This document shows positions 1 through 46,909 of a DNA stretch of 46,909 nt, piece by piece. Below the pieces are notes generated by a model. The model was not told where the DNA came from. It made no database searches and saw only the letters and a program-made list of their open reading frames with translations. This DNA comes from Acidobacteriota bacterium (GTDB lineage: Bacteria > Acidobacteriota > Thermoanaerobaculia > Multivoradales > JAHEKO01). The DNA lies in contig JAUVRX010000003.1 in NCBI GenBank assembly GCA_030597375.1, positions 1-46,909 of the forward strand, given 5' to 3'. The translations under genes and the position numbers were made by a program. Each line of letters starts with the position of its first letter. Within the stretch, counting starts at the first letter, position 1.

Positions 1-494
1 ATGAGCCCCTCTCGATACAGACGAACGAAAGCTGTGCGCACGGCTTTCGACAGCCGCTCATCGAGAGTGAAGCGCTCTCGGCTCCAGTCGCAGCTCGCCC
101 CCAATCGATCGAGTTGGGAGCGAATGTGCCCACTATGCTGGCGTGTCCAATCCCAGGCGCGCTCGAGGAAGAGCTCGCGGCCGAGGCTCACTCGATCGAC
201 CCCTTCCTTCACCAATTGGCGCTCTACCATCAATTGGGTGGCGATGCCCGCATGGTCGGTGCCTGGAAGCCAGAGGGCGTTGTAACCGCACATCCGCTTC
301 CAACGGGTGAGAAGATCCTGGATCGTCGTCTGCAGAGCGTGCCCCGCGTGCAAATTGCCAGTCACGTTCGGCGGCGGGATCATGATGCAGAAACTCGGTT
401 TCGTGGAGGGTGCCGCCGCCACGAAGATGCCCTCTTCGGACCAACGCTCCTGCCACTTCTGCTCGTAGCTGGCTGGATCGAATCTCTTTTCCAT
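1..494 (-). CDS. valS: Valine--tRNA ligase, N-terminal part (cut by left edge)
   Basis: Cytoplasmic class I aminoacyl-tRNA synthetase that charges tRNA-Val. Reading the minus strand from the ATG at 494 gives 164 codons that run off the left edge. The start MEKRFDPASYEQKWQERW is typical of ValRS. Residues near 40-55 read PPPNVTGNLHAGHAL, which holds the HIGH-type ATP-binding signature (here HAGH), followed by the family sequences LWLPGTDHAGIATQ and ERAWDW. Identity with ValRS, rather than IleRS or LeuRS, rests on PPPNVTG and TDHAGIATQ. The ATG shares one base with the stop of a tiny upstream reading frame (494-583). The KMSKS motif and editing domain lie outside the window. Confidence 0.95.
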   Translation of the reverse strand, partial: MEKRFDPASYEQKWQERWSEEGIFVAAAPSTKPSFCIMIPPPNVTGNLHAGHALQTTIQDLLTRWKRMCGYNALWLPGTDHAGIATQLMVERQLVKEGVDRVSLGRELFLERAWDWTRQHSGHIRSQLDRLGASCDWSRERFTLDERLSKAVRTAFVRLYREGL

Positions 495-19889: not shown

Positions 19890-20594
19890 CTAGCAGATTC
19901 CCTGGCGACGCAACGAGGTCCACGCACCCCCGGCTCCCAGCACCAGATGGTCCACCAGGTGCAGACCCACGAGCTGCCCGGCCTCCACCATTCTGCGGGT
20001 AAAACCCAGGTCTTCAGCGCTGGGCGAGGGGTCTCCGCTCGGATGGGTATGAAACAAGACGATGCCGGCCGCGTCACGCAGGCGACCCTCCTTGAGGATC
20101 GCTCTCGGCTCCACGGCTGCTCGACTCAGAGTACCCCGATACAGCTCTGTTTCACCGATCAGACGATTTCGAGTGTCCAGGTAGAGAGCGCCCATCACCT
20201 CTTGACCTTTGAGGCTGTACCGAAGCTCCAGGTACGAGGCTACGGATTGGGGGTCCGTGAGCAGCTCGCGATCGGCCATTCGTGCCCGCGAGAAGCGCCG
20301 GGCGAGCTCCACCGCAGCCAGAAGTCCCGCCGCCTTGGCAGGCCCCAGCCCGGCCCTCTTCAAGACCAGGGGTCCGGCCCCCAGCAGACCGGTCAGACCT
20401 TCGCTGGTGCGTAAGAGGTCCCGTGCCAGCTCGAGCACAGACTTGCCGGGCTTGCCTGTCCGCAGAACAACCGCCACCAATTCCACGTCGGAAAGGGCCG
20501 CGCTTCCATTGTTGAGGAGGCGCTCGCGCGGCCGCTGATCCCTGGGCAACTCGCGCAGAAAGCTACTACGACCATCGGTTGGCTCAGATTCCAA
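19890..20594 (-). CDS. radC: RadC family JAMM/MPN protein
   Basis: A 234-residue protein of the RadC family, historically called a DNA repair protein, though the repair role is doubtful in E. coli. The N-terminal part (1-105) has RPRERLLNNG and a helix-hairpin-helix-like segment. The C-terminal JAMM metalloprotease-like domain (about 115-230) holds HTHPSGDPSPSAEDLGFT, the metal-binding signature, intact. It starts 72 bases after the SDR stop. A GC-rich hairpin at 20609-20625 lies between them, so it may be separately transcribed. It precedes the tRNA-binding-domain gene by 39 bases. Confidence 0.92.
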   Translation of the reverse strand: MESEPTDGRSSFLRELPRDQRPRERLLNNGSAALSDVELVAVVLRTGKPGKSVLELARDLLRTSEGLTGLLGAGPLVLKRAGLGPAKAAGLLAAVELARRFSRARMADRELLTDPQSVASYLELRYSLKGQEVMGALYLDTRNRLIGETELYRGTLSRAAVEPRAILKEGRLRDAAGIVLFHTHPSGDPSPSAEDLGFTRRMVEAGQLVGLHLVDHLVLGAGGAWTSLRRQGIC

Positions 20595-20608
20595 TCTTCG
20601 AAGTCCTC

Positions 20609-20625
20609 GGGCCGTGGAGCGGCCC
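20609..20625 (-). other. GC-rich hairpin between SDR and radC
   Basis: GGGCCG and CGGCCC form a 6-bp stem with a 5-base loop. It lies 42 bases past the SDR stop and 15 bases before radC. No T tract follows on either strand at the expected place (plus side has TTCTT), so termination is only possible, not shown. Confidence 0.4.
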
Positions 20626-20666
20626 TTCTTGGATCAGTAGACGGAATCGGGAGCCGGATTCTTGCT

Positions 20667-21422
20667 TCAGCCCGCCAAGACGCTACCACCGTTGACGTTC
20701 AAGACCTCACCCGTGATGTGTCGAGCCAGTGGAGAGGCCAGGAAGACCACCGGCCCGGCAATGTCTTCGGGAGATGCCACCCTCTCGAGGGGAATCGCCT
20801 CTTCAATGGCCTCTCGCCCGCCGTCTTCGAACGCCTCGCGACAGAGCTCCGTGTCCACCCAGCCTGGAGCTACGGCGTTGACGCGAATCTGTGGTGCCAG
20901 CTCCGAGCTCCACGACTTCGTGGCCGAGATCACCGCGCCTTTGCTGGCAGCGTAGGGGCTGTACAAGGCCTCGCCCCTTTGCCCGGCTGTGGAGCTGATG
21001 TTGACGATGTTTCCGTCGTTCGACCTCTCGAAAAGCCGAATCGCCCGAGATGCACAAAGGAAGACGCCTCGCTCGTTGAGGGTCCAGGTCTCTTCGAGCA
21101 GTTGGAGATTCAGCTCTCTCAGCGGATTTTCAATCCAGATTCCGGCGTTGTTGACCAGACAATCGAGCTGGCCCCATGTCGCTTCGATAGCTTCGAACAG
21201 GCTGTCCACTCCTGCAGGCTCACCCAGATCGGCTGCCACCTTGAAATGGGGTTGGCTCGTCAGCCCCTCCAGGTCGCTCAAAACTGCAGCCGCTGCGTTC
21301 TCCTCAGCCCGATAGTGCACGCACACAGCTGCACCCACCTCGGCAAAGAGACGGCAACAGGCCGCTCCGATCCCCCGGCTACCGCCGGTGACCAGAACCC
21401 TGGAACCTTCGAGATCGATCAT
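20667..21422 (-). CDS. Short-chain dehydrogenase/reductase (FabG-like)
   Basis: A 251-residue classical SDR. The NAD(P)-binding TGGSRGIG lies at about residues 12-19, NNAG near 91, and the catalytic Ser-Tyr-Lys set in NISSTAGQRGEALYSPYAASK. The end VFLASPLARHITGEVLNVNGG is FabG-like. It probably reduces or oxidises a 3-oxoacyl/3-hydroxyacyl thioester; the HYRAEE after the second strand suggests NADPH preference, which is an inference. Its ATG overlaps the thiolase stop, so the pair likely catalyses successive acyl-CoA steps (condensation then reduction, or the reverse). Confidence 0.9.
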   Translation of the reverse strand: MIDLEGSRVLVTGGSRGIGAACCRLFAEVGAAVCVHYRAEENAAAAVLSDLEGLTSQPHFKVAADLGEPAGVDSLFEAIEATWGQLDCLVNNAGIWIENPLRELNLQLLEETWTLNERGVFLCASRAIRLFERSNDGNIVNISSTAGQRGEALYSPYAASKGAVISATKSWSSELAPQIRVNAVAPGWVDTELCREAFEDGGREAIEEAIPLERVASPEDIAGPVVFLASPLARHITGEVLNVNGGSVLAG

Positions 21423-22606
21423 GAGAAAGCCTCGACGACCATGGCGATTCCCTGACCACCACCGATGCAGGCCGAAGCCACTCCTCTCCCGCCGCCCCGG
21501 CGCCGCAGTTCCTTCAGAAGAGTCAGGACCAGACGGGTTCCGGTAGCACCCAATGGATGACCCAGGGCGATGGCACCGCCGTTGACGTTCAGTTTGCTCG
21601 TCTCCAGGTCCATCTCGCGAACGACAGCCACGATCTGTCCAGCGAAGGCCTCGTTGATCTCGAAAAGGTCCAGATCCCCCATCGAGAGCCCGGCGCGCTC
21701 GAGAGCGAGGGCGATAGCAGGGACCGGACCGATACCCATCCGAGAAGGCTCTACGCCTACAGTCGCCCAGGAGAGAATCCTCCCCAGCGGTGGATCGGAT
21801 CGACCCTGAACGCCCTCGTTGGTGGTCAACACCATCATGGCAGCTCCATCGACAATGCCGGACGCATTCCCCGCGGTCACAGAGCTCTCTTCACCAAACA
21901 CCGGCGGCAACGCCGCGAGCTCTTCCAGAGTCGTCTCGGGACGCAGATGCTCGTCGCGCTCTACCGTTCTTCGTCGCCTTCCCCTGCCGACCTCGACCGG
22001 CATGACTTCTTCGGCCAGGCGGCCACTCTCCCAGGCGGCCGCTGCACGCTCCTGGCTCTGCAGCGCGAACTCGTCCTGCTCCTGTCGACTGATCCCGTAG
22101 TCCTTTGCCAGGTTGTTGCTGGTCTGCGCCATGAAACAGCCGCAATAGGGATCGTAGAGCGACGCCATGAGCAGGTCTTCCAGCTTTCCCTGACCGAGGC
22201 GGAACCCCTTTCGCGCTCCCCAGATGCAGTGCGGAGCCTGCGTCATGTTCTCCATACCACCCACCAGGCAAGTGCTCGCCTCGCCCAGCAGGATGGCATG
22301 AGCGCCCGAAATGATCGACTGGATCCCCGAGCCGCAGAGGCGGTTGACGGTCAGCGCCGGCTTCGACTTCGGCACCTCCGCCTTGAGAGCCACGTGTCGG
22401 GCCCCGTAGATCGCATCGGTCGAAGTCTGCAGTGCGTTGCCAACGAAGGTGTGATCGATCGCCTCCGGATCAATTCCGGTCCGCCGCAGAGTCTCCTTGG
22501 CAGCCAGGACTCCAAGATCGAGGGCCGAGATATCGGCAAAGGACTGGCCGAACTCCGCCATCGGAGTCCGAACACCGTCCAGCAGTACCAGGTCTTTGAT
22601 CTCCAT
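21419..22606 (-). CDS. Acetyl-CoA C-acyltransferase (thiolase)
   Basis: A 395-residue thiolase, the usual length for acetyl-CoA acetyltransferase/3-ketoacyl-CoA thiolase. Catalytic residues: nucleophile C91 in NRLCGSGIQS, NEAF, His in GHPLGATGTR and the second Cys in ACIGGGQG. It either condenses two acyl-CoAs or cleaves 3-ketoacyl-CoA. Coupled to the SDR by a 4-base overlap and 15 bases after threonine synthase. The acyl-CoA dehydrogenase at 1576-2721 could supply or use the same intermediates. Chain-length preference is not readable. Confidence 0.94.
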   Translation of the reverse strand: MEIKDLVLLDGVRTPMAEFGQSFADISALDLGVLAAKETLRRTGIDPEAIDHTFVGNALQTSTDAIYGARHVALKAEVPKSKPALTVNRLCGSGIQSIISGAHAILLGEASTCLVGGMENMTQAPHCIWGARKGFRLGQGKLEDLLMASLYDPYCGCFMAQTSNNLAKDYGISRQEQDEFALQSQERAAAAWESGRLAEEVMPVEVGRGRRRRTVERDEHLRPETTLEELAALPPVFGEESSVTAGNASGIVDGAAMMVLTTNEGVQGRSDPPLGRILSWATVGVEPSRMGIGPVPAIALALERAGLSMGDLDLFEINEAFAGQIVAVVREMDLETSKLNVNGGAIALGHPLGATGTRLVLTLLKELRRRGGGRGVASACIGGGQGIAMVVEAFS

Positions 22607-22621
22607 TTCGCAATCTCCCTT

Positions 22622-23821
22622 TCAGGATCGATCGGTCTCGACCCCCTGCTCGAAGTAGTTCGCCGGGTGGCCGGTCTGAAATACGACCGTACGCTCACCC
22701 GCTTGAATCAGGCCCTCGTCGACCAACTTCTCGAATCCCACCACGGCCGCCGCCCCTTCGGGCCCCAGCCATAGGCCCTCCTGGCTCGCGAACCGCGCTC
22801 GGGTCTCCACGACCTCCTGCTCGCCTACGGTCACAGCCGCCCCCCTGGTTTCCCGAAGCGCACCCAGGATCAGTGAGTCAGCCAGCGATCTGGGGACTCG
22901 AAGGCCCCACACCCGCGTCCGTGGCTCCTCCCACGGAACGGCTCGTTCCTCTCCTGACTGGAAGGCCCGCACGATCGGTGCAAAAGCTGCCATCTGGACC
23001 GCCGCCAATCGGGGTAGCCGGTCCTGCAAGAGGCCCAGCGCCTGGAGCTCCCGAAACGCCTTGTACATGGCGACGATTCCAGTGCCCCCTCCCGTCGGGT
23101 ACACGATCCAGTCGGGCGGGTCCCAGCCGAACTGCTCGACCACTTCGAGACCCATGGTCTTCTTGCCCTCGACCCTGTACGGTTCTCGGAAGGTCGAAAG
23201 ATCCCAAAAGCCATCCTCGAAGGCTTGCAGCTCCAAGGCGGAATCTACGAGGGTCGCTCCGCCGAGCAGCACGTCGGCACCAAACAAGCGGCAGCGATCC
23301 ACGATCCCACCCGGTGTATCGCTCGGCAGGGCCACCCTGCAGGGAAGGCCGGCGGCAGCGGCAAAGGCGGCAGTGGCGAGAGCGGCGTTTCCGGCGCTCG
23401 GCAGCTGAACACCCGGAGCTCCCAATTCGCGCGCCCGATTCACCGCCAGGGACAGCCCACGGTCCTTGAAGGAGCCGGTAGGATTTCCTGCCTCCTCTTT
23501 GAGCCACAGCTGTGTTCCTTCAGGCGAATGCCGAACGCGAATCAGAGGCGTTCCACCTTCCCCCAGGTCGATCCGATCGGCGAAGCGCTCTACCGGTAGC
23601 AGCTCCCGGTATCGCCAGAGACTCCAGGGCCTACCAGCCAACCGAGTCTTCAGAACCGCTCCTTTTTTCGGATCCAGATCGTAGGTAACCAGCCAGGGGA
23701 CCTCTTCATCGCTCGTCGGCGACTGCGCTCGCAGGTTCAAATGCCGCCCACTCTTCGACGAAACCAGATCTCTGGCCCAGGTCACCGCCGCAGACTGCTC
23801 GATTGACGTCGATGAGCTCAC
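22622..23821 (-). CDS. thrC: Threonine synthase-like PLP enzyme
   Basis: A 399-residue fold-type II PLP enzyme, expected to convert O-phosphohomoserine to threonine. The PLP lysine is K119 in NPTGSFKDRG, with SAGNAALATAAFAAAAGLP after it and the phosphate-binding YPTGGGTGI later. Length and order fit threonine synthase of the shorter bacterial class. The first 40 residues, where many homologues have a CxxC pair, read SSKSGRHLNL and lack cysteine. A threonine dehydratase-like or other PLP-lyase role is less likely but not excluded. The ATG overlaps the stop of the glycosyltransferase upstream by 4 bases. No other threonine gene is nearby. Confidence 0.85.
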   Translation of the reverse strand: MSSSTSIEQSAAVTWARDLVSSKSGRHLNLRAQSPTSDEEVPWLVTYDLDPKKGAVLKTRLAGRPWSLWRYRELLPVERFADRIDLGEGGTPLIRVRHSPEGTQLWLKEEAGNPTGSFKDRGLSLAVNRARELGAPGVQLPSAGNAALATAAFAAAAGLPCRVALPSDTPGGIVDRCRLFGADVLLGGATLVDSALELQAFEDGFWDLSTFREPYRVEGKKTMGLEVVEQFGWDPPDWIVYPTGGGTGIVAMYKAFRELQALGLLQDRLPRLAAVQMAAFAPIVRAFQSGEERAVPWEEPRTRVWGLRVPRSLADSLILGALRETRGAAVTVGEQEVVETRARFASQEGLWLGPEGAAAVVGFEKLVDEGLIQAGERTVVFQTGHPANYFEQGVETDRS

Positions 23822-25077
23822 TTCGTCGCTTCCTCCATGGAGCGGTCCTTGGGCTTCGAGCTCTCAGCAGCTCGGCTCAGGGCCGCCTCGTAAGCCGATC
23901 GATACCGTCCAGCCACCACCTGCCAGGTGAGCTCTTCAGTGGCCTTCCGGCGGGCAGCAGCACCCATTCGAGCCCGCTCCGATGGTGACTCGAGAAGACG
24001 ACGTAAAGCCGCCAACAACTGCTCGGCGTTTTGTTCCTCTACGAGCAGGCCCTGTTCTCCATCGGTCACGGCCAAGGGGATACCGGATATCGCCGAAGCC
24101 ACAACCGGCAACCCGCTGGCCATGCCTTCGAGAATGACATTCGGCAACCCATCGACGTTTCCCTTGTCGTCATGAACGGCGGGCAGCACGAAGAGATCGG
24201 CCGCCCGATACAGATCGGGCAGTGTGTCTCGAAGGACCAGCCCCGGAAAGTGAACTCGATCGGACCACCCTGCGGAGCTCTGTCGGAACTCCTCCAGCCG
24301 GTCTCCACCACCGGCCAGCACGAGATGGAGCGCCGAGTTGCTCCCGAGGAGCTCCGGCAGCAACCGAAGCAATCCCTGAAACCCCTTCTTGGTGACCATG
24401 CGACCGACGCCCAGCGCCATGACTGCACCTGCCGGGAGGCCGAGCCTCTGGCGCCAGATCTCTCGTCTTTCGGGGTCCGGCTTGAAGAGATCCACATCGA
24501 CGCCGTACGGGATGACCTGTGCCCATGAGCGATCGAAACCCAACTGGCAGACGCGGTCCACAAGCTCCGGCGAGCAGCCCGTAACCAGGCGGGCCTTTCG
24601 CAGCGCCATCCTGACCCAGGGGCGGAGCATGGCTTTCTCCGCCATAAAGACATCGCTGCCGTGCAATCCCACCGCAACCGGGACCGCGATTCTCGTCAGA
24701 CCCGAAACTACGCCGTTGGGCACCACCCAATGAGCGTGTACCAGGTCGTACGATCCAGCCTCGAGCTCTCTGGTTACCGCCGCCCGAGCCGCCAACGCGT
24801 AGAGCGGCGCAACGGCGCCAGCGCCGACTCTTACCGTCTCGTCCGAGCTCAGGCTGCGGCTGTATCCGAGCACCTCCAGACGCTCTGGAGCATAGCGAAA
24901 GCTCCTGACCTCCACGCCGTCGTCGGTCCAGCCGGGAGCGACCCCCTCTGCATGAGGTGTGAGTACAGTCACTCGATCTCCACCCTGGACGAGGGCTCGC
25001 GCCAGATCCCGAATGAAGGGTCCTGCAGTGTCGCCTTCGAAGCGAGGATAGGTCTGGGTCAGAAAGAGAAGATTCAG
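23818..25077 (-). CDS. Family 4 glycosyltransferase with CTG start
   Basis: A GT-B fold retaining glycosyltransferase, likely for envelope or exopolysaccharide. The C-terminal donor-binding half is typical: ALGVGRMVTKKGFQGLL, FPGLVLRDTLPDLYRAAD and NVILEGMASGLPVVAS with the EX7E-type glutamates. The earliest ATG/GTG/TTG in frame is GTG 24972, but this would remove the first Rossmann strand. The frame upstream encodes NLLFLTQTYPRFEGDTAGPF, a normal GT4 N-terminus, and begins at CTG 25077, 12 bases after the TAG of the GT2 gene, with GGAAGG 6 bases before it. From CTG the protein has 419 residues. Coupled to thrC downstream. Confidence 0.85.
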   Translation of the reverse strand: MNLLFLTQTYPRFEGDTAGPFIRDLARALVQGGDRVTVLTPHAEGVAPGWTDDGVEVRSFRYAPERLEVLGYSRSLSSDETVRVGAGAVAPLYALAARAAVTRELEAGSYDLVHAHWVVPNGVVSGLTRIAVPVAVGLHGSDVFMAEKAMLRPWVRMALRKARLVTGCSPELVDRVCQLGFDRSWAQVIPYGVDVDLFKPDPERREIWRQRLGLPAGAVMALGVGRMVTKKGFQGLLRLLPELLGSNSALHLVLAGGGDRLEEFRQSSAGWSDRVHFPGLVLRDTLPDLYRAADLFVLPAVHDDKGNVDGLPNVILEGMASGLPVVASAISGIPLAVTDGEQGLLVEEQNAEQLLAALRRLLESPSERARMGAAARRKATEELTWQVVAGRYRSAYEAALSRAAESSKPKDRSMEEATK

Positions 25078-25089
25078 GGCCGGCCTTCC

Positions 25090-26076
25090 CTACTCCACTC
25101 GCTCCTTGACTGAGTAGGTGTCAGTGCGATCGAAGTTCTTGAAGGTGATCATCTCGCCGATTAGACCGGTCGTGAGGACTTGAATTCCGAGCAGCATCAG
25201 CAACACTCCCAGCAGCAGAAGCGGACGGTTCGACAGGGTCTGGCCCGACAACCAGAGAACCGCCAGGTAGAGATTGATACCGAGACCAACGACAAGCGAG
25301 CTCAGGCCGATCATTCCGAACAGGTGCAGCGGCCGGCGCGTGTACTTGGTGATGAACAGAACCGTGATCAGGTCCAACAGCCCTTTGTAGTAACGATCCC
25401 AGCCGTACTTGCTGGTTCCGTGCTTCCTGGGATGATGGACAACAGACAGCTCACCCAGAGTGAACCCACGACGGCTGGCCAGGACAGGAATGTAGCGATG
25501 GAGCTCCCCGTACAGTGCGATCTCGTCCACTACCTCCCGCCGATAGGCCTTGTAACCGCAGTTGAAGTCATGAAGGTCCACATGAGCGAGCTTTCTCGTC
25601 ACCCAGTTGAACAGGCGCGACGGGTAGCGCTTCGAGACCGGATCCTGTCTCTGCTGCTTCCACCCCGAGACCAGATCCAGGTCCTCAGACTCCAGCTTCT
25701 CCAAGAAACGGGGGATCTCGTCCGGATCGTCCTGCAGGTCACCGTCCATCGTGATCAGAATGTCTCCTTGCGAGAAGTCGAAGCCGGCACACAGGGCCGC
25801 AGCCTTGCCGAAATTTCGTCTCAGGCTGACGAGCTTGACCCGCTCGTCGAGCTCGTGGGCCTCTTTGACCTGCTGTCGCGTTTCATCGGCAGAGCCGTCA
25901 TCCACGAAGACGATCTCGAACCGGAGCCCGAGCCGATCCAGGACCTCTGCGACTCGCTGCGCAAGCTCCATCACCGTATCGGCCTCGTTGAGGACCGGTA
26001 CGATGACGCTCACCTGGGGCTTGGCACCCTGTTGGTCTGCAACCTCCAGTGAGGTCGGAAGCGACTCTACTGTCAT
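25090..26076 (-). CDS. Family 2 glycosyltransferase with two membrane helices
   Basis: A 328-residue polyprenyl-phosphate glycosyltransferase of the DPM1/ArnC/GtrB type. The GT-A domain has VSVIVPVLNEADTV, VDDGSADET, the metal-binding MDGDLQDDP and a cytoplasmic RRNFGKAAAL loop. Two hydrophobic helices lie at about 250-272 and 285-308. Members move a sugar from a nucleotide donor to undecaprenyl phosphate at the inner membrane. It lies 65 bases after udg and 12 bases before the GT4 gene, so the two likely act in the same glycan or lipid modification. Confidence 0.9.
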   Translation of the reverse strand: MTVESLPTSLEVADQQGAKPQVSVIVPVLNEADTVMELAQRVAEVLDRLGLRFEIVFVDDGSADETRQQVKEAHELDERVKLVSLRRNFGKAAALCAGFDFSQGDILITMDGDLQDDPDEIPRFLEKLESEDLDLVSGWKQQRQDPVSKRYPSRLFNWVTRKLAHVDLHDFNCGYKAYRREVVDEIALYGELHRYIPVLASRRGFTLGELSVVHHPRKHGTSKYGWDRYYKGLLDLITVLFITKYTRRPLHLFGMIGLSSLVVGLGINLYLAVLWLSGQTLSNRPLLLLGVLLMLLGIQVLTTGLIGEMITFKNFDRTDTYSVKERVE

Positions 26077-26141
26077 GGCTGGCTATTGTAGCAATGGCTC
26101 TTCAACAGGTAGGCGGCCGTCGGATTGCCGATGAATGACCT

Positions 26142-26864
26142 TCATCCGCCTGTGACTTCTGCCAGTCTGTCACGAACCACCTGCATGTCCTCCCAGGTGG
26201 GTCGTTTCAACGATGCATTTCGCAAGAGCGCAGCCGGGTGGTAGGTAACTCGCGTCTCGACGCCACGAACCCGATACCACTCGCCTCTCATCCGCCCCAA
26301 TGTGAGGTCGTTCCCCAGGAGGGTCTGGGCCGCTACCCGGCCCAGGAGAACGATGACCTTGGGCTCTATCAGATCGATCTGTTGCTCGAGGTATCGCCGG
26401 CATGACGCCACCTCTTCGGGCTGTGGATCCCGGTTTCCGGGCGGTCGGCACTTGACGATGTTGGCGATATAGACCGTCTCGCGCTCGAAGCCGATTGCCT
26501 GGATGATCTTGGTCAGCAGCTCCCCAGCCCGGCCGACAAATGGTAGCCCCTGCCGATCCTCTTCCGCTCCAGGTCCTTCGCCAATGAACATCAGGTCGGC
26601 GTCTGGATCTCCTGACCCGAACACCACCTTCTGGCGCCGCTGGCTGAGATTGCAGAGGCTGCAGGTCTGGGACTCTCTGGCGAGCTCAGCCAGGCGACTC
26701 TTCCGGTCTTCAGCATTCTCGCTGTGGACCTCGAGGCTCGCTTGCTCCTGCGGCCGAGATGCCCCTGCCAGGGATGTTCCCTGCGGAAGGTAGAGCTCCT
26801 CGAATCCGATCTCCTGCAGATACTCGAGAAGGTCATCCACCAGCGGTATCCATCCCTGGTTCAC
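26142..26864 (-). CDS. Uracil-DNA glycosylase, family 4 (Fe-S)
   Basis: A 240-residue family 4 uracil-DNA glycosylase that removes uracil from DNA. Four cysteines for a 4Fe-4S cluster are present: C68 and C71 (TCSLC), C139 (IVKCRPP) and C155 (ASCRRY). The active-site motifs GEGPGAEEDRQGLPFVG and HPAALLRN are intact. About 60 N-terminal residues precede the domain, with no known fold. It overlaps the end of coaBC by 32 bases, so the two are co-transcribed and probably coupled. Confidence 0.93.
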   Translation of the reverse strand: MNQGWIPLVDDLLEYLQEIGFEELYLPQGTSLAGASRPQEQASLEVHSENAEDRKSRLAELARESQTCSLCNLSQRRQKVVFGSGDPDADLMFIGEGPGAEEDRQGLPFVGRAGELLTKIIQAIGFERETVYIANIVKCRPPGNRDPQPEEVASCRRYLEQQIDLIEPKVIVLLGRVAAQTLLGNDLTLGRMRGEWYRVRGVETRVTYHPAALLRNASLKRPTWEDMQVVRDRLAEVTGG

Positions 26865-28080
26865 CCCCGTCGAGCTCCTGCCTGATCAGGTCGAGCAACC
26901 GAGCCGCAACCAATCTCTTGGCCTGGAGGGGAATGGTCAAAGGCGGTTTGCCGGCACGAAAGACCGTGACCTCGTTGTTCTCGGACCCAAAGCCGATGTC
27001 GCTCCGCGATACGTCGTTGGCGACGATCAGGTGTGCTCGCTTGTCCACCAGCTTTCGCCTGGCTTCGCTTTCGAGATTCCCGGTCTCGGCGGCGAAGCCC
27101 ACTCGCAAGGTGTTCGGCGCGATCTCCTGGAGGCGCGTCAGAATATCTGGAGTCGCCACCAGCGACATCCGAGGTGGACCGGCGCCCTTCTTCAGCTTGG
27201 TCTCAGAGGTGGATCGAGGCGTGAAGTCGGCCACCGCCGCCGCCATGATCACGACCTCAGCCTCCTGGGCCAGTCGATCGACGACATCGGCCATTTCGGC
27301 TGCGGTGGTGACGTCGAACCGCTCGACTCCCCTGGGAGTCGGAAGAGACACCGGGCCAGACACCAGCAGGGTTCTGGCCCCACGACTCGCTGCCTCGACC
27401 GCCAGGCTGAAGCCCATCTTGCCACTGGACCGGTTCGAGAGGAAGCGGACCGGATCGAGCGGCTCGTGAGTTGGGCCGGCTGTAATCAGCACGGTCCTGC
27501 CCTCCAGATCACCACCCTTCGCGGTCGCCTCGATTGCGGTCACGATCTCGTCGGGATCGGCCATTCGCCCCATCGCCGTTTCCCCGGTGGCCAACGGGCC
27601 GACGACAGGCCCAATCAGCGTCACACCCCGAGCCAGAAGGGTTGTCACATGGGCCTGCACCGCCTCCTTTTCCCACATCTCACTCGTCATGGCGGGTGCG
27701 ACGAGCAGATCCCCGGTGAAGGCCAGAGCCGTCGTGGCCAGGAAATCATCCGCCAGGCCGAGAGCCAGCCGAGCGAGGGTGTTGCATGTCGCCGGAGCCA
27801 CACAGAACACGTCGGCCCATCGCGCCGCACTGATATGGAGCTCGTCGCCGTTGTTGTCGGGCTGAAGATACTCTTCCCGGTAGACCGGATACTGGCTCAG
27901 CACTTCCAAGGTCAGGGGTGTGACGAAGGCGCCGGCGCTGCGAGTCATCGAGCAGCGAACCGCGTGCCCCTTGCGCCGCAGGCTACGGACGATTTCGGGG
28001 GCCTTGAATGCGGCGATTCCCCCGCTGACTCCAAGGAGAACTTTCACGGGCTCCCAAGTCCTCTTTTCGGCGACAGCCAC
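26833..28080 (-). CDS. coaBC: Bifunctional phosphopantothenoylcysteine decarboxylase/synthetase
   Basis: A 415-residue CoA-biosynthesis enzyme that ligates cysteine to 4'-phosphopantothenate (CoaB) and decarboxylates the product (CoaC, FMN-dependent). CoaC: LGVSGGIAAFKAPE at 16-29, active-site H82 in ELHIS and VAPATCNT. The usual PAMN becomes PAMT (T132), and the usual ACG before GRM is ATG (T165), so residues equivalent to E. coli N125 and C158 are missing. CoaB: TAGPTHEPLDPVRFLSNRSSG, AAAVADF and KLKKG. The GTG at 28080 is the longest start; GTG 28044 would begin just before the first strand. Overlaps udg downstream; rpoZ lies upstream. Confidence 0.93.
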   Translation of the reverse strand: MAVAEKRTWEPVKVLLGVSGGIAAFKAPEIVRSLRRKGHAVRCSMTRSAGAFVTPLTLEVLSQYPVYREEYLQPDNNGDELHISAARWADVFCVAPATCNTLARLALGLADDFLATTALAFTGDLLVAPAMTSEMWEKEAVQAHVTTLLARGVTLIGPVVGPLATGETAMGRMADPDEIVTAIEATAKGGDLEGRTVLITAGPTHEPLDPVRFLSNRSSGKMGFSLAVEAASRGARTLLVSGPVSLPTPRGVERFDVTTAAEMADVVDRLAQEAEVVIMAAAVADFTPRSTSETKLKKGAGPPRMSLVATPDILTRLQEIAPNTLRVGFAAETGNLESEARRKLVDKRAHLIVANDVSRSDIGFGSENNEVTVFRAGKPPLTIPLQAKRLVAARLLDLIRQELDGGEPGMDTAGG

Positions 28081-39629: not shown

Positions 39630-39705
39630 GAATCAAACACTCGAGTTGAAATAGGAGTCCGTCCGAGGGCCGCTCAGGCACTATGCGTTTGAACGTTTCA
39701 GTCCA

Positions 39706-40401
39706 CTAGGCCGGACTCTTCATGAGCCGCTGCTGGATCTCTTCCAGGATTACCTGGACCACTTCCTCAATCGACCGAGAGCCGGTGTCTACCACCCGGT
39801 AGCTGCTATCCAGGGTCAGGGGTGATTCGGCCCTGGTGGAATCCCGCTCGTCCCGCTGGCCTACCTCGCGCATCAGCTCGTCTGCGCTCAGATTCGACTG
39901 GCCGGACTCCTGGAGTTGCTTGAAGCGGCGACGAACTCTCGTTTCCAACGGCGCCTGCAAGAAGAATTTGTAGGGCGTGTGGGGGAAGACCTTGGTGCCG
40001 ATGTCACGCCCCTCCACCACAGCCCCTCTCGACTCGGCGAATGAGCGCTGGTGTTCCACCATGATCCGGCGGACCCTCGGATACGCCGAAATAGCTGAAG
40101 TGATCTCCGAGATCCGCGGCTGCCGTGCTCGATCCCCCAGATGCCTGCCGTCCAGGAGCACCTCGACGGTGCCGTTTTCTTCACGGCGCAGCTCGAGATC
40201 CAGATCGGCAGCCAACTCCTCTACCTTCGACTGATTCACGGGATCGACACCCAGTTGATCGACCTTGAGGCCCAAAGCCCGATACATCGCCCCAGTCTCG
40301 AGATAGGGCACATCCAGCGCCACCGCCAATCGGCGGGCTACTGTGGTCTTGCCCACCCCGGAAGTACCATCGATGGCCACGATCAGCGGCTCGCCCTTCA
40401 T
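39706..40401 (-). CDS. cmk: Cytidylate kinase
   Basis: A 231-residue kinase that phosphorylates CMP/dCMP to the diphosphates. The P-loop DGTSGVGKTT lies near the start, followed by YLETGAMYRALGL, and the CMP-binding VVEGRDIGTKVFP is intact. The lid has RRRFKQLQESG. It overlaps the pseudouridine synthase gene by 4 bases (ATGA). In related genomes cmk often precedes rpsA directly; here queG and leucine dehydrogenase separate them. Confidence 0.96.
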   Translation of the reverse strand: MKGEPLIVAIDGTSGVGKTTVARRLAVALDVPYLETGAMYRALGLKVDQLGVDPVNQSKVEELAADLDLELRREENGTVEVLLDGRHLGDRARQPRISEITSAISAYPRVRRIMVEHQRSFAESRGAVVEGRDIGTKVFPHTPYKFFLQAPLETRVRRRFKQLQESGQSNLSADELMREVGQRDERDSTRAESPLTLDSSYRVVDTGSRSIEEVVQVILEEIQQRLMKSPA

Positions 40402-43765: not shown

Positions 43766-44275
43766 CTACAAGGGGACTCCAGATCGGTCGCCGGAATCAG
43801 CAGATCGGATGCGCCGGTCCATCTCCCGCATCAGGCGCTCGTTGGCTCCGAGCACCTTCCCCTCGAGCAGCAGCGTCCAGAGCTGGATCGCCAGAGTGAC
43901 GAAGAACAGCAGAGCGTGTACCCACTTGGCAATGACTCCGGTGGCAACTCCTCCCCCGACGATGAAGGTGGCCATGACGGCCCCCATCGCCAGCATGAGC
44001 CAGGGATTGCTGCGATTCTTGAACTCCCGCGTCTGCGCCGCCGGCCCTTCGCCGAAGTCGAGCTCGTTCGCGGCCGACTTGATCGCCTTGCCGGTGCCGA
44101 TGAGATAGAACAGGATCCAAGAGTGGGAGAACAGTATCAACAGGCAGGAGAACAGAGCTACCAGGAGATGCCAGCCGACGGTTCCCTGCTCACCGATTCG
44201 ATAGCCGAGGATCCCTGTCACGACCAGGCCACCTGTGGCAACCCAACCCAACATGAGGAGGGCTCGTCCCATCAT
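43766..44275 (-). CDS. Four-helix membrane protein, unknown function
   Basis: A 169-residue protein not recognised. Predicted helices are about 5-24, 36-60, 91-113 and 118-137. Histidines lie at H36 and H51 (helix 2, FSHSWILFY) and H120 (helix 4, KWVHALLFF), a pattern that might bind haem b but is not proven. A charged cytoplasmic or periplasmic loop (about 62-90) contains GKAIKSAA and TREFKNRSNP. The end is basic. It overlaps the glycosyltransferase upstream by 4 bases (ATGA) and precedes trpS by 140 bases with a promoter between. Confidence 0.75.
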   Translation of the reverse strand: MMGRALLMLGWVATGGLVVTGILGYRIGEQGTVGWHLLVALFSCLLILFSHSWILFYLIGTGKAIKSAANELDFGEGPAAQTREFKNRSNPWLMLAMGAVMATFIVGGGVATGVIAKWVHALLFFVTLAIQLWTLLLEGKVLGANERLMREMDRRIRSADSGDRSGVPL

Positions 44276-45492
44276 GGCGTCGTCTCCTTCTTCAAGGTCA
44301 TCTCGCGGTCCTGCTCGAACACGACCGTAGGCTGGGGTGATTTCGGGTCTGCCACGACTGACGAGTCGAGCAGCTCACACCAGATTCTCGCAGCGTGCTG
44401 CGGCCGCCAAAACTCCTCCAGAGCCAGTTTCCCAGCCTCCCCCCTGCGTCTCGCGGCCAGGGGCTCGTCGAGAACCTCGGACAGGGCCACGCAGAGACCG
44501 CCGACGTCTTCCGGCGGAAACAGCCATCCGGTCTGGCCCGGCCTCACGACTTCCGGCAATCCACTCACATCGCTCGCCACGACTGGAAGCGCCTCCTCCA
44601 TGGCTTCCAGGACAACCAGGGGCATGCCCTCGTAGACAGAAGGGACCACCAGCGCCAGGGCTCGGGACATCAGGCTCCGAACCGTCCCCGCATCACAACC
44701 GCCGAGAAATCGCACCGAGTCACCGAGCCCCAAGCGCCGAGATGTCGCCTCGAGAGAGGCACGATGCTCCCCCTCCCCAGCCACCACGAGTTGGACCTCT
44801 CTGCCGCTTTCTCTGAGGATCGCCACAGCGTTCAGCAGAACCTCCACACCCTTGCGGATCCGCAGGCGACCCACGAAGAGTAGAAATCCCTCCAGTTCCG
44901 GTAGCGGCAGAGAAGAAGTCCCTTGAATGTGGCGACCGCCCATCACGTTGGGCAGCACCAGGACGGGACCGACCTTGTAGTCCCTCTCCACCTCCAGGGC
45001 GGTCTGTCGGCTCGGCGCCAGCACCAGATCGCTCAGCCAGGCGGTGAATGATCCCAGGACTATCTGCAAGGGGGCCTTGAAGAGCCGGAACACCCACTCT
45101 CTCAGGCCGGGCACCCCCAGGATCTGGCCGTCGAATCTGAGGGGACGCACCGCTCTCAACTCCTCCAGGTAACTCACTTGCAGGAGCACCACCAGTCGGG
45201 GGCTCGGTTCCAGCACGGCACTCAAGGTCCTCGTCAGAAAAGCCACCAGAGCACCATCCGATTCATGTACCTGGACGACGTCCGGTTCGAATTGATGTAA
45301 CGCTCTCAGAAAACCAGGAACGATCGCTACCGGGAACAGGAGCTTCGGTCCTCTGGCTCCTCCTGGGCCTCGCCCCAGTACTTCCACCTGATGGCCCATC
45401 GCTTCCAAGCCGGCCGCCAGCTGAAGCACCTGTTCTCCCACGCCGGAGACATCCATGGGGGGCAGGGTGTTGGCGACGAGAAGAACTCTCAC
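44272..45492 (-). CDS. Family 4 glycosyltransferase
   Basis: A 406-residue GT-B glycosyltransferase. The N-terminal half starts MRVLLVANTLPPMDVSGVGE and holds the acceptor-side pattern VVQVHESDGALV. The donor half has LFVGRLRIRKGVEVLLNA, VRFLGGCDAGTV and VPSVYEGMPLVVLEAMEEAL, including the EX7E glutamates. The sugar and acceptor are unknown. It overlaps recG by 4 bases upstream and the four-helix membrane protein by 4 bases downstream. Confidence 0.9.
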   Translation of the reverse strand: MRVLLVANTLPPMDVSGVGEQVLQLAAGLEAMGHQVEVLGRGPGGARGPKLLFPVAIVPGFLRALHQFEPDVVQVHESDGALVAFLTRTLSAVLEPSPRLVVLLQVSYLEELRAVRPLRFDGQILGVPGLREWVFRLFKAPLQIVLGSFTAWLSDLVLAPSRQTALEVERDYKVGPVLVLPNVMGGRHIQGTSSLPLPELEGFLLFVGRLRIRKGVEVLLNAVAILRESGREVQLVVAGEGEHRASLEATSRRLGLGDSVRFLGGCDAGTVRSLMSRALALVVPSVYEGMPLVVLEAMEEALPVVASDVSGLPEVVRPGQTGWLFPPEDVGGLCVALSEVLDEPLAARRRGEAGKLALEEFWRPQHAARIWCELLDSSVVADPKSPQPTVVFEQDREMTLKKETTP

Positions 45493-46909
45493 GATCGCCC
45501 CCCGGCGAAGCCGTCGTATCGCACCCTTGCGCGCTCGCTCAGACGCCTCATGAATGGGTCTCCCCTCGCCTCGGTGGACTCGGCCAGGAGCTCATTCGCA
45601 TCGATTCGTGACTTCTCCAGCCATTCCCGGTCCGCCACGATGTTCGCCACCCTGAAGAGTGGCTCGCCGGCTTGACGCGTTCCCAGCAGATCGCCTGGAC
45701 CGCGGATCTCGAGATCTTTTTCGGCAATTCGAAAGCCGTCGGTAGTGGCCCCGAAGACTTCGAGTCGCTGCCTTGCCTGCTCCGTGAGTCGGCCGTGAAG
45801 AGCTACGCAGAATGACCGTTCGGCTCCCCGTCCAACCCGACCTCGGAGCTGGTGGAGTTGGGCCAGACCGAAGCGTTCCGCACTATCGATAATCATGATC
45901 GTAGCTCGAGGCACATCCACACCGACCTCGATGATCGAGGTCGCTATCAAGACCCTGATCTCGCCAGCTCCGAACGACTCCATGATCCTCTCACGTTCCT
46001 CGGCGTCGACCCTGCCATGGAGGACCTCGGATGGCCAGTCGGCGAGGTAGCTTCGCACGGCCTCTCCCTGACCGCAGATGGATGTGCCCATGATTTGCGG
46101 ATTTTCATCGATCATCGGGAATACCAGATAGGCTTGTCCACCCTCCTCGAGACGCTTCACGAGCCAACGATAGACGCGGTCTCGGCGAGCCTGCGAAACA
46201 ACCTTGGTAACCACTTCCCGACGTCCCGGCGGCAGCTCGTCGATGACCGAGAGAGAAAGATCGCCATAGGCCGTCAGAGCCAAAGAGCGGGGAATGGGTG
46301 TCGCCGTCATCACCAGCATGTCGGCTCGTTGCCCCTTGCTCTGCAGCGTCTGGCGCTGGGCCACCCCAAACCTGTGCTGCTCATCGACCACCACCAGACC
46401 GAGCCGGTCGAAGGCAACACCTTCCTGAATCAGGGCATGGGTACCGACCGCCAATTGAATTCTTCCAGCCGCCAGAGCGCTGCGGACCTCCTCGGATCGA
46501 CCATCTGAGCCCGTCACCAGAGCCAACCTGAAGCGAGGCCCGAGGAGGCGGTTCAAGGTCCTGAAGTGCTGCGCCGCCAGGAGCTCGGTCGGAGCCATGA
46601 AGGCTCCCTGCAGGCCGTTCTCCATGGCCGCGACCAGTGCCAAGGCCGCGACGATCGTCTGGCCGCTGCCGACGTCGCCCTGTAAGAGACGAAGCATGGG
46701 ATAGGGACTCTCCAGGTCGCCCACGATCTCCTCGACGACGCGTTGCTGAGCTGCGGTAAGCCGGAAGGGTAGAACCGCCTGCATCAGCTGCCGAAGGGAC
46801 TGCCCGATCCTATAGGTGTGACCCTTCTGATCGCGGGTCTCGTAGTCTCGCAACAGGCCGAGCTCGATCTGAAGCTCCAGAAACTCCCCGTAGATCAACC
46901 TCTGGTGAG
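45489..46909 (-). CDS. recG: ATP-dependent DNA helicase RecG, C-terminal part (cut by right edge)
   Basis: The C-terminal 472 codons of RecG, a fork-reversal/branch-migration SF2 helicase. Motifs in order: LTAAQQRVVEEI (Q motif), Walker A GDVGSGQT, LAPTELL-type MAPTELLAAQHF, Walker B DEQHRFGV (DEQH), TATPIPR, and LQGRVGRG-type LRGRVGRG with the RecG-specific GRTDGF-like ATTDGFRIAEKDLEIRGPG. The Walker A lysine is glutamine (CAG, 46659-46661); the rest is intact. The wedge domain is outside the window; the frame continues through the right edge (HQRLIYGEF). Confidence 0.93.
   Translation of the reverse strand, partial: HQRLIYGEFLELQIELGLLRDYETRDQKGHTYRIGQSLRQLMQAVLPFRLTAAQQRVVEEIVGDLESPYPMLRLLQGDVGSGQTIVAALALVAAMENGLQGAFMAPTELLAAQHFRTLNRLLGPRFRLALVTGSDGRSEEVRSALAAGRIQLAVGTHALIQEGVAFDRLGLVVVDEQHRFGVAQRQTLQSKGQRADMLVMTATPIPRSLALTAYGDLSLSVIDELPPGRREVVTKVVSQARRDRVYRWLVKRLEEGGQAYLVFPMIDENPQIMGTSICGQGEAVRSYLADWPSEVLHGRVDAEERERIMESFGAGEIRVLIATSIIEVGVDVPRATIMIIDSAERFGLAQLHQLRGRVGRGAERSFCVALHGRLTEQARQRLEVFGATTDGFRIAEKDLEIRGPGDLLGTRQAGEPLFRVANIVADREWLEKSRIDANELLAESTEARGDPFMRRLSERARVRYDGFAGGRS

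Follow-up and report, generated by a model that had tools for sequence, protein, structure and literature searches.

The helicase RecG binds to forked DNA and drives branch migration and fork regression through ATP hydrolysis, which takes place in its two helicase domains. In its Walker A motif, a lysine holds the ATP phosphates; engineered mutants of this residue exist, such as Escherichia coli K302A. The window analyzed here (the whole stretch of 46,909 bases, which is the complete contig C26) runs out within a recG gene whose Walker A motif, GDVGSGQT, has glutamine at the lysine position. Judging from the sequence, this is probably an ordinary recG, split by the assembler where two versions of the locus were assembled, and the RecG of the organism most likely carries the normal lysine (probability about 0.92). 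One version would end the window with glutamine, while the other would begin contig C186 with lysine, and the enzyme of the organism would act as an ordinary SF2 fork-remodelling helicase.

The recG frame at the end of the window

The minus-strand frame is open at the contig end and translates to ...LLQGDVGSGQTIVAAL..., in which the RecG helicase motifs DEQH, TATPIPR and LRGRVGRG share one frame with GDVGSGQT (Table 1). The initial annotation had read the P-loop and its CAG codon at these coordinates and had described the remaining motifs as intact; letters, positions and motifs were all confirmed. Its view of an open, undecayed gene holds in that this arm contains no stop or frameshift, but the gene is cut off by the contig end.

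Table 1 Positions of the recG-related features in the window.
Feature	Position	Strand	Basis
recG 3′ two thirds: helicase domains and C terminus, 472 codons, open at contig end	45489–46907	−	TIGR00643, NF008168, 1gm5
Walker A motif GDVGSGQT	46656–46679	−	Translated frame
CAG (Gln) versus AAG (Lys) in overlapping C186 of the same assembly	46659–46661	−	Overlap alignment
Contig-end stretch duplicated as C186:1–658 with 30 mismatches; putative haplotype arms of one locus	46252–46909	.	Alignment
Glycosyltransferase-like gene directly downstream of recG	44272–45492	−	Sequence inspection (label); gene order in three relatives

Family searches return RecG models as the best families for both recG parts of the assembly. 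The protein of the window spans positions 187–628 of 629 in TIGR00643 and scores 634 bits with NF008168, while the part on C186 spans TIGR00643 positions 2–410, corresponding to the N-terminal (wedge/OB) part that is absent from the window. Both score below the RecG model cut-offs because each part is truncated; L006, a complete homologue from the same genus, passes TIGR00643, NF008168 and NF008165. The best solved relative of the window's protein is RecG 1gm5 (E = 1.1e-120), and the residue aligned to its glutamine is lysine in both RecG structure alignments shown. The mfd model reaches 348.9 bits on the same protein, below the mfd cut-off of 800. GDVGSGQT in RecG is not a chance match.

The downstream glycosyltransferase-like gene starts 4 bases within the end of recG (45489–45492 are shared), and this pair, an odd but conserved partnership for a repair helicase, is retained in three relatives. 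Elsewhere in the window, a short dispersed element at 39663–39712 has at least 12 further matches of 85–96%, spread over 11 other contigs. It is flanked by imperfect 13-nt inverted arms (39655–39667 and 39706–39718) and is REP- or MITE-like.

Two arms of one recG locus

The assembly comprises 3,013,452 bases in 323 contigs and is 91.73% complete and 0.98% contaminated. Within it, the RecG model has four matches: one on the window's contig, one on C132 that is Mfd (GDVGFGKT), one at C186:3–1235 and a weak one on C186. Besides the two recG parts, the own-genome family search thus returned no further recG, only Mfd and the weak match. C186 starts with the N-terminal part of recG, the other half of the window's gene. 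Its bases 1–658 form an ungapped alignment with the end of the window (628 of 658 identical) that reaches both contig ends. Mismatches are absent from the first 77 bases of the overlap, and the last of them lies at overlap position 639 of 658. Where the window has glutamine, C186 codes GDVGSGKT. This copy search covered the window outside 20001–27000. A second recG copy, which the initial annotation had proposed to look for, is present and has lysine, but it is most probably not a second gene, as the two copies overlap end to end at contig ends.

Gene order in relatives agrees with this placement. In a same-genus genome (G001), a single 7.6-kb contig has recG between homologues of its C186 neighbour or neighbours on one side and, on the other, homologues of the window's glycosyltransferase-like gene and the genes that follow it. 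The same recG gene order is found in two further relatives (L037 and L038; genomes G011 and G005). Because the flanks of both parts border one recG in all three relatives, the two contigs are adjacent and their overlap represents two versions of one stretch. We read the assembly as containing a single recG in two haplotype arms, of which one has lysine and the other glutamine.

The other contig ends behave differently. Window positions 1–127 overlap exactly with contig C240, at its start and in opposite orientation, and the far end of C186 has an exact 127-base overlap with C280. Exact overlaps of this length usually indicate a de Bruijn assembler with k = 127 and allow the neighbouring contigs of the window to be named. 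An assembler overlap with k = 77 was considered for the 77 identical bases with which C186 begins and set aside, because the other two tested ends overlap by exactly 127. The recG end is unlike these ends, which would be expected if the assembly path was broken by two strains or by thin coverage. In PMC8311964, low coverage and closely related strains are described as fragmenting metagenome assemblies, with contigs becoming a strain consensus.

The 30 bases that differ between the two arms fall in 29 codons, 19 of them changed synonymously and 10 nonsynonymously. When the same 30 changes were placed at random, 21.5 ± 2.3 were nonsynonymous, and none of 5000 draws was as low as 10. This strong synonymous excess argues for two real haplotypes of a gene under selection. 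Three of the 10 replacements lie in conserved columns, where no more than one of 27 relatives departs (C186 protein numbering): at position 302 the window's arm is the odd one, with its glutamine, and at positions 279 (Q for E) and 349 (P for L) it is the C186 arm (L003 3-1313). Since the chance share of replacements in near-invariant columns is 81/218, the observed replacements do not avoid such columns, consistent with errors among them. Odd residues in both arms are as expected of imperfect contig ends. The lysine arm, too, may contain errors or rare alleles at Q279 and P349.

Apart from the glutamine, the window's protein departs at no column that is invariant in relatives, including 54 further such columns outside the overlap. 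Departures at one to three columns invariant in all others occur in 10 of 27 complete relatives, so a single odd residue alone is no proof of error. For these column counts, L018 (GDVASGKT) was dropped by the motif filter, giving 28 relatives, and the truncated L029 was also dropped for the near-invariant-column and placement counts, giving 27.

Origin of the glutamine

Lysine occupies the Walker A position in all 29 relatives read, which are the best 29 of 58 searched and include the same-genus L006: 21 have GDVGSGKT, seven GDVGCGKT and one GDVASGKT. A DNA pattern for the glutamine form, which demands QGDVG ahead of the motif and misses glutamine forms with other flanks, matched one of 396 phylum genomes, on the window's contig only. 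The corresponding lysine pattern matched 265 of the 396, this genome included, and under the same limits misses about a third of genomes. A DNA-pattern scan of species genomes for a glutamine-type RecG family, in which records of the window's own genome were possibly omitted, found no RecG. Its single match (L035) was rejected as a glutamine-type RecG: it is a 779-aa protein that reads GDVGTGQT, lacks the helicase motifs and looks like a sedolisin-type protease from its sequence, and it was matched because WSN in the pattern also admits Thr. Among the papers listed by a literature search, none was on a natural RecG with a Walker A glutamine. The initial annotation had named a common and active GSGQT among relatives as an outcome that would overturn its reading. 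The reverse was found, with lysine in C186, in the same-genus G001 and in every relative read.

We infer that the glutamine is most likely, and with somewhat better than even odds, a wrong consensus base at a contig end with thin coverage. Sequencing or assembly error is thus the option of the initial annotation with the most support, more precisely at a contig end assembled as two haplotypes, the other arm carrying lysine. The lysine copy of the same locus leads us to expect an ordinary RecG in the organism, and a glutamine in Walker A is not claimable as a property of the organism. GGC precedes the changed A, a context that resembles a motif linked to Illumina miscalls. As a cause of the glutamine, such a context error is plausible but weak, because GGC alone does not reliably predict errors according to PMC3622629.

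It is possible, though clearly less probable than an error, that the glutamine is a real base change in the arm of a minor strain, and thus a catalytically dead RecG allele beside the lysine strain. The differences between the arms, with their synonymous excess, favour the window's arm as a real haplotype, and its lack of stops or frameshifts and its fit to the invariant columns point in the same direction. Against this, no relative or other genome with a glutamine-type RecG was found, and a long-dead allele should show relaxed constraint, whereas the window's arm departs at 0 of the 54 further invariant columns outside the overlap. In such a strain, the cell would depend on RuvAB and other fork enzymes. 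A lineage-specific inactive RecG, as suggested initially, is not supported for the lineage, given the lysine in C186, L006 and all 29 relatives, and survives in this narrower form of one minor strain. Wolbachia was considered and rejected as a precedent for recG decay: PMC4224334 reports decay of ruvA and purifying selection on recG.

A stronger version, in which the sample held, beside the lysine strain, a natural strain with a Walker-A-dead but otherwise conserved RecG that was kept because it is useful, is very improbable. If true, it would be a natural test of whether RecG has a separate function in binding DNA when it does not hydrolyse ATP.

The two remaining readings carry almost no weight. 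Two different recG sequences on two contigs of one assembly could suggest paralogues, an active lysine form and a glutamine form serving as regulator or passive fork binder, but a second recG paralogue was rejected because both copies are cut at contig ends and overlap end to end, and their flanks neighbour each other around one recG in three relatives. An ATP-hydrolysing, lineage-specific RecG with a Walker A glutamine would fit the open frame and the intact remaining motifs, but the overlapping copy has lysine, as do the same-genus relative and every one of the 29 relatives read; a compensated ATPase, as the initial annotation put it, has no support, given that no other glutamine RecG was found in the 396 phylum genomes or the species-genome scan and that the window's protein shows no other invariant-column departure.

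Comparison with known RecG proteins

With the consensus error as the preferred origin of the glutamine, the locus carries a caution: a single catalytic-residue change within a few hundred bases of the end of a metagenome-type contig needs checking against the other contigs of the assembly. If the glutamine were real and fixed, this would be a rare natural RecG without the ATP-binding lysine. The glutamine form should bind DNA yet not turn over ATP, and by analogy with K302A-type mutants it would be inactive. In those E. coli mutants the same residue is altered, but by engineering, whereas the window gives no sign of a cell with the change fixed. Mfd, the transcription-repair coupling factor, has a related helicase motor but belongs to a different family, and it occurs once in the genome, with GDVGFGKT. 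The closest match is RecG itself (TIGR00643/NF008168; solved structures 1gm5 and 9wm0): the family is the same along the entire stretch and the gene order is that of relatives, and one residue differs, glutamine for the Walker A lysine, in the copy on the window's contig only, while the C186 copy retains lysine.
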